IMG/VR virus record: IMGVR_UViG_3300023116_000009
Span: 62,001-126,000 of that record
Direction: 5' to 3' (one strand)
Source of the DNA: a virus
DNA length: 64,000 nt
In this document: in pieces, positions 2,653 to 21,018 of the stretch
Layout of the letters: every line of letters begins with the position of its first letter
How positions within the stretch are numbered: position 1 is the stretch's first letter
Position numbers and translations under genes: made by a program
The notes under the pieces: model-generated
Told to the model about the DNA's origin: nothing
What the model saw: only the letters and a program-made list of their open reading frames with translations
Databases searched by the model: none

Positions 2653-3230
2653 AAGTGTTCTGCTACAATTTGTTTTGCTTTTGAAGTTTCATAGTTGACG
2701 AAGGGATCATACTTCTTTATCATTTTTGACATGCGTTTCCAAATCACATCATCACCAATAATTGTATCATACCTACTGGCAAAATTGGTAATCCTATTTA
2801 AAAGAACCAATGTCTCTAGCATAATATGACCACCAAGGTACATCCTCAATGCCTTTGAATGAGTGCCCCTCTCACATTGAAGCGACTTATTAAGGGACTC
2901 ACATTCATTCATAATATTTTCCAAATCCGTCTTGAACAAATAAGTTATACTCTGCTGCCTTCTTTTCCACTCAACTAAATTTGAGGGATTCATATTTTTA
3001 ATATAGAAGTTAGAGTTAACTACAAAATTTGATACAAAAAATTCTACGACATCATTTTCATTGTACTGTCCACCAAGACGTTCAAAGAAATAGATGTCGT
3101 TTCTTTTTTGAAAAGATTCTTTTGAAACTCTGTTGAGTTTAGTTTTTTCATACCGAAAATAATCGTACCTGTCCGTTGTAAAATGTGTTTTAATTGCAAC
3201 GTAGGTAAGATACACTTCAAAAGCAGACAT
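2649..3230 (-). CDS. 59: Helicase loader gp59
   Basis: The product resembles T4 gp59, which loads the gp41 helicase onto gp32-coated forked DNA. An N-terminal YLTYVAIKTHF helix is followed by QKRNDIYFFERLGGQY, NDVVEFFVSNFVVN and a C-terminal KRMSKMIKKYDPF segment, all matching T4 gp59 blocks. At 193 residues it is slightly shorter than T4 gp59 (217). It sits between gp33 and DUF1825. Confidence 0.85.
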   Translation of the reverse strand: MSAFEVYLTYVAIKTHFTTDRYDYFRYEKTKLNRVSKESFQKRNDIYFFERLGGQYNENDVVEFFVSNFVVNSNFYIKNMNPSNLVEWKRRQQSITYLFKTDLENIMNECESLNKSLQCERGTHSKALRMYLGGHIMLETLVLLNRITNFASRYDTIIGDDVIWKRMSKMIKKYDPFVNYETSKAKQIVAEHL

Positions 3231-3232
3231 AA

Positions 3233-3505
3233 TTAAATAGGAAGTACACCTCTGGTTGTTTTCTTGATGTAGTTGAGGCGGGTTGCCTCTGCTTTAATTT
3301 TTTCTTTCAATGACGGTGCGATCAACTTAACAACGGACTCAACTTCAAGGTCTTTTGCCTCACAGAAATCTACGATAGCATCAATATAGTTGAGTGTTTT
3401 ATTGCTGTCTTTCACAATGTTTTCAATTGTCATTGAAAACTTATTCTTATCCATAAAGTTGTCATCAATTAACTGATCAATGTTTTTGTTTGGTTTAATG
3501 GGCAT
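3233..3505 (-). CDS. 33: Late promoter transcription accessory protein gp33
   Basis: This protein of about 90 residues resembles T4 gp33, the co-activator that links RNA polymerase to the gp45 clamp during late transcription. The helical core NYIDAIVDFCEAKDLEVESVVKLI and the following LKEKIKAEATRLN fit the family. I prefer the ATG at 3505 to the one at 3520 because it overlaps the upstream nuclease gene less. It acts with gp55 and gp45, both also in this window. Confidence 0.75.
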   Translation of the reverse strand: MPIKPNKNIDQLIDDNFMDKNKFSMTIENIVKDSNKTLNYIDAIVDFCEAKDLEVESVVKLIAPSLKEKIKAEATRLNYIKKTTRGVLPI

Positions 3506-19864: not shown

Positions 19865-20290
19865 TTATTTATCCTTATCAAAATAGAAAGGTCCGTTCTC
19901 AGAACCCCATTTCTGTTCTCCAGTTTCAGGATCAAATCCAGCGTCAATAACTTTATAAAAATCAGGACCCATTTGTATTTTACTTACCAATACAGTCCCT
20001 TTGAATATGCATCCTGGAACAGTTTGTCCCCAATACAATCCCCCTCGTTTAACAAAGATCAAATTACATTGATCATTCTCTACTATCAGATGATCTTTCT
20101 TATCAACAACTTTAATTAGTTTATCTCGATAGGGTTTATCATCATGTTTATATCTCTGAGTCACATGAAATTCATTATGAGAAATCTTTTCATGAGTCAA
20201 GATGATATGAGCAAATCTTGTCGGACGACTTGATGCTTGTTTCCAATTATTGTAACTGCCTTCAAACCAGTTGATAAATTCTTCAAACAT
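19865..20290 (-). CDS. cpeT: CpeT-like phycobiliprotein lyase family
   Basis: This 141-residue protein resembles CpeT/CpcT (DUF1001), bilin lyases that attach phycoerythrobilin to phycoerythrin in host phycobilisomes. The N-terminal WFEGSYNNWKQASS, FAHI and KPYRDKLIKV, and the C-terminal GFDPETGEQKWGS..GPF, match. The catalytic role of the phage protein is uncertain. It may bind bilin made by PebS. Confidence 0.87.
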   Translation of the reverse strand: MFEEFINWFEGSYNNWKQASSRPTRFAHIILTHEKISHNEFHVTQRYKHDDKPYRDKLIKVVDKKDHLIVENDQCNLIFVKRGGLYWGQTVPGCIFKGTVLVSKIQMGPDFYKVIDAGFDPETGEQKWGSENGPFYFDKDK

Positions 20291-20306: not shown

Positions 20307-20378
20307 AGCGGGTGATCGGAATCGAACCGACGACATCTAACTTGGAAGGATAGCGTTCTACCGCTGAACTACACCCGC
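20307..20378 (-). tRNA. tRNA-Gly (UCC)
   Basis: The 72-base cloverleaf has acceptor GCGGGTG/CACCCGC, anticodon loop CTTCCAA giving UCC, and T-loop TTCGATT. CCA is not encoded. Confidence 0.95.
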
Positions 20379-20381
20379 AGG

Positions 20382-20402
20382 AAAGGGGGTGGTCAGACCC
20401 CC
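20382..20402 (-). terminator. Possible terminator before tRNA-Gly
   Basis: A GGGGGT/ACCCCC stem followed by TTTC on the minus strand lies between the repeat block and tRNA-Gly. The U-run is short, so it could also be an RNA-processing site. Confidence 0.5.
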
Positions 20403-20416
20403 AAGGACACATGCAC

Positions 20417-20620
20417 GCCACCTGTTTTAGTTTCAGTTGCAAAACAGGAAATCAACCACACGGAAGGGGTCGTTTGGATCCACCACTTGCTCTTTGACTG
20501 GAAGCAAGAAACCAGGCGGGGAGAGATATCCCATCCGCACCACTTGTTCTTATGGAAAAACAAGAAACCCGAGGGGTCGTTAAACCCATCCCGACCAGGG
20601 CGCTTTTAGCGTCATCCCGA
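20417..20620 (-). repeat. Tandem two-hairpin repeat, candidate structured RNA
   Basis: Three imperfect units with starts 57-65 bases apart each carry a hairpin: CCTGTTTT/AAAACAGG (20421-20448), CTTGCT/AGCAAG (20486-20508) and CTTGTT/AACAAG (20543-20564). Each is joined by a GGTTTC-like linker to a GC-rich GGG/CCC stem (for example 20513-20537). A fourth short CGCT/AGCG hairpin is at 20601-20611. There is no open frame. It lies between tRNA-Gly and the gene at 20631. The function is unknown. Confidence 0.55.
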
Positions 20621-20630
20621 GACGTTTCAT

Positions 20631-20858
20631 TTAGGCATAAACACCAGATTCAATAAGATCTGCTTCAACCTGATCGAGAATTACATTATAATCATCTTCA
20701 GGATCATCGTACAATTGTACTCCTTGGTCTTCATAGAAACGAATAAGTTTCTGATAAAGTTTAGGGTAATCTTCATCAAGGGAAATATTACCCTCGATTG
20801 CTGCAGTCAGTTTTTTGAGATCGTTTTTGAACTTTGAATGAAATTTAGAACGAGACAT
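20631..20858 (-). CDS. Conserved hypothetical protein, 75 aa
   Basis: A basic N-terminus (MSRSKFHSKFKNDLKKL) is followed by an acidic C-terminal half with DDPEDDYNVIL. It lies downstream of tRNA-Pro in the same direction. The function is unknown. Confidence 0.65.
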   Translation of the reverse strand: MSRSKFHSKFKNDLKKLTAAIEGNISLDEDYPKLYQKLIRFYEDQGVQLYDDPEDDYNVILDQVEADLIESGVYA

Positions 20859-20901: not shown

Positions 20902-20975
20902 TCGGGACGACAGGATTCGAACCTGCGACATCTCGCTCCCAAAGCGAGTGCTCTACCAAACTGAGCTACGTCCCG
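20902..20975 (-). tRNA. tRNA-Pro (UGG)
   Basis: The 74-base cloverleaf has acceptor CGGGACG/CGTCCCG, anticodon loop TTTGGGA giving UGG, and T-loop TTCGAAT. It lies 15 bases after the consensus -10 at 20990-20995. Confidence 0.95.
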
Positions 20976-20983
20976 TTGTTGAT

Positions 20984-21018
20984 GCAAGTATTATACTGGA
21001 TAATACTTGCGGTGTCAA
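20984..21018 (-). promoter_or_regulatory. Consensus promoter for tRNA-Pro inside a palindrome
   Basis: The minus strand reads TTGACA (21018-21013), 17 bases, TATAAT (20995-20990). A perfect 11-bp inverted repeat, GCAAGTATTAT/ATAATACTTGC (20984-21010, five-base centre), covers the -10 and most of the spacer. This would suit an operator. Confidence 0.8.

Follow-up and report, generated by a model that had tools for sequence, protein, structure and literature searches.

What is the block of imperfect repeats that lies just ahead of a tRNA-Gly gene in this viral genome, and does it act on the genes that follow it or belong to the transcript that precedes it? The window analyzed here is a stretch of 64,000 nucleotides from a 186-kb virus record (IMGVR_UViG_3300023116_000009) and is part of a T4-like cyanophage, with genes for photosystem II D1, a CpeT-like protein and tail proteins. 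An initial annotation placed the block, correctly, between a protein gene and tRNA-Gly, and described it as three units built from plain pairs of hairpins without resemblance to any known array. The Rfam search that it proposed gives a different picture: the minus strand from 20572 to 20472 matches family RF01761 (wcaG) with 86.2 bits against a gathering score of 42, and this match spans all 98 model positions and includes two of the three units. The Rfam scan of the window returned wcaG and tRNAs only, with no T-box match. As the score exceeds the gathering score, the block can be assigned to this family; on sequence grounds, the block is a genuine structured RNA, and its family, wcaG, is known but uncharacterized.

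The array exceeds the Rfam model, which covers two units. It occupies the minus strand from 20625 to 20410, followed by a GC hairpin at 20402-20385, and consists of four stem units (20625-20421), the tail UGGCGUGCAUG and this hairpin. The three stems named previously (CCTGTTTT/AAAACAGG, CTTGCT/AGCAAG and CTTGTT/AACAAG) are present on the minus strand, and the three units stand as pseudoknots at 20572-20543, 20515-20486 and 20456-20421, but a fourth, 5'-most unit at 20625-20598 had been missed. The 75-aa CDS upstream stops 5 nt before the first stem, tRNA-Gly starts at 20378, and the CpeT-like gene and tail proteins come after it. In the direction of the minus strand, the features are as follows.

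20990 to 21018, minus strand: predicted sigma70-type promoter TTGACA-N17-TATAAT, 12 of 12 consensus positions
20902 to 20975, minus strand: tRNA-Pro(UGG)
20631 to 20858, minus strand: 75-aa CDS, phrog_552, function unassigned
20598 to 20625, minus strand: array unit 1 (type II), hairpin ACGUC-UCGGGAU-GACG with GGG in the loop, then CUAAAAGCGCCC
20573 to 20597, minus strand: linker hairpin UGGUCGGGAUGGGUUUAACGACCCC
20543 to 20572, minus strand: array unit 2 (type I, B position), stem CUUGUU/AACAAG and weak pseudoknot GGG/UCC
20472 to 20572, minus strand: RF01761 (wcaG) match, 86.2 bits
20515 to 20542, minus strand: linker hairpin UGGUGCGGAUGGGAUAUCUCUCCCCGCC
20486 to 20515, minus strand: array unit 3 (type I), H-type pseudoknot CUGG-UUU-CUUGCUU-CCAG-UCAAA-GAGCAAG, with C-position covariation
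20456 to 20485, minus strand: linker UGGUGGAUCCAAACGACCCCUUCCGUGUGG
20421 to 20456, minus strand: array unit 4 (type I, terminal, beyond the Rfam model), pseudoknot GUUG/CAAC and stem CCUGUUUU/AAAACAGG
20410 to 20420, minus strand: conserved array tail UGGCGUGCAUG, for which relatives have the alternative UGGCGAGCCUG
20385 to 20402, minus strand: GC hairpin GGGGGU-CUGACC-ACCCCC with tail UUUCCU, a weak terminator or none
20307 to 20378, minus strand: tRNA-Gly(UCC)
19865 to 20290, minus strand: CpeT-like auxiliary metabolic gene, 3' of tRNA-Gly

Thermodynamic folding of the block was unremarkable (z = -0.43 for the minus strand and -0.41 for the plus strand), and the absence of a minimum-free-energy signal is expected if the units are pseudoknots. 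Comparison with relatives supports this well: the CTTG/CAAG units are H-type pseudoknots rather than plain hairpins, with the bases before UUU pairing with the hairpin loop. Unit 3 reads CUGG (S1), UUU, CUUGCUU (S2), CCAG (S1), UCAAA, GAGCAAG (S2) and UGG. The two sides of S1 change together in relatives (CUGG/CCAG, CCUG/CAGG, CCAG/CUGG, CAGG/CCUG and CUAG/CUAG), and the S1 column pairs are among those with the strongest covariation (z of 12.2, 11.1 and 8.6; top-ranked pseudoknot pairs 7-20, 6-21 and 5-22) in 122 distinct 47-nt terminal units, which were aligned gap-free and have a small effective sequence number (8.4), the covariation counts ignoring kinship. Among 32 diversified units, standard pairs occupy 352/352 pair cells with 72 double-sided changes, three of the four S1 pairs have changed on both sides, and sliding the partners cuts pairing from the observed 100% to 37-55%. 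Selection on RNA shape, as first proposed, is thus borne out by compensatory changes in the stems of relatives. An S1 of at least 3 bp occurs in 137 of 149 distinct C units, compared with at most 67 after re-pairing with the loops of other units; S1 is weaker at the B position (80/135 against at most 55) and at the A position (38/89 against at most 27). Within the window, S1 is clear in units 3 (CUGG/CCAG) and 4 (GUUG/CAAC) and weak in unit 2 (GGG/UCC), and a GGG/CCC pseudoknot is possible in unit 1. The terminal-unit pseudoknot has the variants GGUUG/CAAC and GGCUGU/GCAGUU among relatives.

This pattern of change bears on whether the block works as RNA at all. If it were a DNA-level hot spot for recombination or cassette insertion, its inverted repeats having no role in RNA, one could account for the small genes that split some arrays (L094 and G001) and for the variable flanking genes. 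However, the compensatory changes keep pairing, including that of the pseudoknot helix, instead of sequence, and the array keeps one orientation with respect to terminators and genes. We consider such a hot spot very improbable.

The relatives also contain a second type of unit, located 5' of the pseudoknots. This type II unit is a hairpin of 4-6 bp whose loop contains GG or GGA, followed by an A-rich stretch and UGG (for example AGUC-ACGGAUG-GACU, with variants); a stem of at least 4 bp was found in 269 of 280 distinct candidates, compared with a mean of 84 after shuffling. Complete arrays have one to five units counting both types, and that of the window has four. The arrangement common to both types, well supported by these comparisons, is a stem or H-type pseudoknot, then UGG(U/C), then a linker hairpin. 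The conservation of UGG is partly built in, as the unit detector required it as an anchor; the Rfam consensus shows UGG independently. The RF01761 model resembles the window in its CUUG/CAAG stems, UGGUGCGGAUGGG linker, UGGCG tail and marine cyanophage source. As printed, however, it has nested pairs only and two units, in contrast to the four units, pseudoknots, GG-loop unit type and 3'-terminal location of the window array.

Matches to the array were found by blastn in 102 phage records, nearly all from Synechococcus phages. The relatives comprise IMG/VR contigs as well as Kyanoviridae isolates, with the isolates S-PM2, S-RSM4 and S-H35 among the carriers. In S-RSM4 (L122:2666-2779), a CDS annotated as "hypothetical protein" (SRSM4_042) falls within the wcaG array and is unlikely to be a real gene. 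Whole-genome searches gave one RF01761 place per genome; a second match in G008 overlaps the first. The linker signature had 38 exact matches in 85,000 bacterial and archaeal genomes, and an Rfam scan of 37 of these 38 contigs (L414 was left out) gave one real wcaG match, in a contig from a marine MAG. This RNA is at L417:950-1049; the contig was assigned to a marine Euryarchaeota MAG (TMED129) but is probably misbinned phage DNA. From this distribution, the wcaG family looks phage-borne.

Weinberg et al. (2010; PMC2864571) proposed wcaG as a riboswitch candidate, its RNAs lying in potential 5' UTRs of high-light or exopolysaccharide genes; later phage papers repeat this label. The main text and legend of that description give a 5'-UTR location and leave a pseudoknot unmentioned. 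The window array does not have the published location, although this is a descriptive rather than a defining feature of the family. The flanks of the relatives are informative in this respect. Because loci were fetched by sequence patterns, canonical arrays are over-represented, and the array counts given here are among the matches listed.

On the 5' side, first stems cluster at positions -4 to +8 of an ORF stop, and many arrays begin at or overlap the stop codon; with ORFs called by a simple procedure, no ORF stop was found in the tested interval for 185 of 342 array groups. In 179/215 listed arrays, the first feature on the upstream side is a CDS on the same strand, and the upstream genes are mostly small and varied. 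On the 3' side, an intrinsic terminator is located within 90 nt downstream of 189 of the 221 listed distinct complete arrays with enough flank, compared with 44 of 1105 random windows (~4%). Many arrays without a terminator are followed by a GC hairpin and then a tRNA, or by a tRNA directly: the tRNA is 8 nt past the array in S-H35 and, after a hairpin, approximately 30 nt past it in ACG-2014j and in the window. A few arrays lead directly into coding sequence without a terminator. A possible terminator had been noted on the tRNA side in the window, and the GC hairpin at 20402-20385 does resemble one, but it ends in no more than UUUCCU, and the scan of the window for consensus terminators omits it. 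Taken together, these positions support well the view that complete arrays are 3'-terminal, located after a stop codon and before a terminator or tRNA.

Promoter-like sequences are also found 3' of the arrays. A -10 hexamer with TTG 16-18 nt upstream follows 134 of the 221 listed arrays, compared with 67/1105 random and 31/1105 shuffled windows, and the spacing is exactly 17 nt in 130 of these 134. A strict count of TTGACA-like -35 sequences gives only 52/221 listed arrays because TTGCAT is the common form, and so the looser TTG test with controls was used instead. In 46 of the 52 strict cases the -35 is inside the terminator loop, such that terminator and promoter are superimposed. Hairpins with TTGACA in the loop and TATAAT or TATACT 17 nt further on follow the array in L071 and L121. 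They occur away from the array as well: in the window, terminator-like or GC hairpins of this form are found at 10253-10225 and 7919-7891 on the minus strand.

If the array were a cis-regulatory leader or riboswitch, it would sense a ligand or light-linked state and control read-through of the terminator into the next gene. The published 5'-UTR assignment is in keeping with this (PMC2864571), as are the terminator directly after most arrays, the CpeT-like gene past tRNA-Gly in the window, and the downstream proteins, among which the GDP-mannose dehydratase type is enriched and forms the largest cluster (103/219). However, where the TTG-N17-TATAAT-like promoter lies 3' of the array, the next gene's own transcript would lack the array; this and the 3'-terminal position weaken a 5'-UTR or riboswitch function as the main role. 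Furthermore, first stems abut stop codons, a tRNA can follow without a terminator (8 to 33 nt away), no alternative terminator/antiterminator pairing was noticed, and the downstream genes are heterogeneous: cytidylyltransferase-like genes (31), hli, glycosyltransferases, nucleotidyltransferases and tRNAs are also found, and in the isolates the downstream neighbors are tRNA-Gly, tRNA-Leu, tRNA-Met and GDP-mannose dehydratase or epimerase. Read-through from upstream into the downstream gene is possible, but a leader or riboswitch seems quite unlikely.

We give about an even chance to the reading that the wcaG array is a structured 3'-UTR tail that a terminator or tRNA processing would set free as a stable RNA, and that would protect RNA or bind protein. 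The perfect promoter upstream of tRNA-Pro makes tRNA-Pro, CDS, array, tRNA-Gly, CpeT-like gene the likely order. In the window, transcription from the TTGACA/TATAAT promoter at 21018-20990 would proceed through tRNA-Pro, the 75-aa CDS and the array, and RNase P cleavage at the 5' end of tRNA-Gly would create the 3' end of the array. The product would be either a 75-aa mRNA with a pseudoknot tail or, once the coding portion had decayed or been cleaved off, a stable ~230-nt array RNA. The compact chain of pseudoknots might resist exonucleases or bind a protein, thereby providing protection or a stable noncoding RNA. The array would then belong to an early small-gene transcript and would not be a ligand-sensing leader for the next gene. 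In favor of this reading, the genes on either side differ widely, whereas the array persists. Against this 3'-tail reading, the downstream enrichment of the GDP-mannose dehydratase type (103/219) fits a cis-regulatory link, and there are the array groups without a stop (185/342) and the few arrays that run into coding sequence. No expression data for the array turned up in the literature. That there is one array per genome disfavors a general mRNA-stability element and favors a specific role.

Chains of pseudoknots are known from other systems. ToxI consists of tandem H-type pseudoknot repeats, and plant-virus 3' UTRs such as the tobamovirus upstream pseudoknot domain contain consecutive H-type pseudoknots, some beside a tRNA or tRNA-like structure. 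The plant-virus chains share with the array a run of H-type pseudoknots at the 3' end of an RNA, but their sequence is unrelated, and the array is in a DNA phage and is followed by a real tRNA gene. With type III antitoxin RNAs (ToxI/CptI) the array shares the layout of tandem H-type pseudoknots closed by a terminator, and one could read it as a type III toxin-antitoxin RNA ahead of a toxin gene, either a genuine antitoxin or a phage imitation. Yet sugar-nucleotide enzymes, nucleotidyltransferases, hli or tRNAs are found downstream rather than a toxin gene, the units are heterogeneous in stem and linker instead of near-identical repeats, and there is one array per genome. ToxN_toxin gave no match in the genome, in a search whose positive control gave no match either. 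An antitoxin function is hardly credible.

The array might also act in trans. As a phage decoy, it would titrate host molecules through its repeated UGG(U/C) junctions or its GG(A) loops; candidates are the NCCA ends of tRNAs, to which the UGGN of T-box RNAs binds, and an RNA-binding protein. UGG(U/C) is found between helices in every unit (a conservation that derives in part from the detector anchor), GGA-type loops recur in type II units, each genome has a single multivalent array in varying gene contexts, and many arrays are in tRNA-rich regions, with a tRNA within 3 kb of 183/225 listed arrays. T-box leaders likewise have a UGGN-like sequence between two helices, but the window array has no Rfam T-box match, no specifier loop and no leader position. 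CsrB/RsmZ-type sponge RNAs have GGA motifs in hairpin loops and CsrA as partner; GG(A) loops occur in the type II units of the arrays, and no CsrA gene was found in the phage genome by a search whose controls matched in three genomes. The acceptor stems of phage tRNAs, judged by eye, are not systematically complementary to the linkers. This titration model is fairly unlikely. A specific form of it, pairing of UGG linkers with tRNA 3' ends (UGGUCGGG with tRNA-Pro), was set aside as phage acceptor stems generally disagree by eye, and is kept as a rival idea only. A broader proposal, in which wcaG is no riboswitch but a phage-specific, one-per-genome modular noncoding RNA of one to five pseudoknot or GG(A)-hairpin units, may be put forward tentatively. 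A terminator or tRNA processing would free this RNA from the 3' ends of early transcripts, and it would then serve in trans, as a multivalent decoy that binds a host RNA or an RNA-binding protein.

Other RNA matches were seen beside tRNAs in related phages. In S-CREM1 (L121:3204-3418), a manA RNA (RF01745, called cis-regulatory) is located between tRNA-Asn (3132-3204) and tRNA-Leu (3420-3501) with gaps of 0-1 nt; as it fits exactly between two tRNAs, it looks like a tRNA-operon RNA rather than a 5' UTR. The same phage has an abiF RNA match (RF03085, 52 bits; L121:3066-3102) 4 nt from tRNA-Gly. In S-CAM1 (L420:4985-5126), a borderline, 5'-cut permuted tmRNA match (47.6 against 47 bits) is beside tRNA-Arg.

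What the relatives add to the published family is well supported by their alignments and flanks: pseudoknots, a second unit type and the 3'-terminal placement of complete arrays. Since 2010, wcaG has been listed as a cyanophage candidate riboswitch that steers host metabolism, a label repeated in phage genome papers. If the arrays are indeed pseudoknot chains at RNA 3' ends, often followed by a new promoter, this label should change, and the search should be for a stable RNA and its partner rather than for a metabolite.
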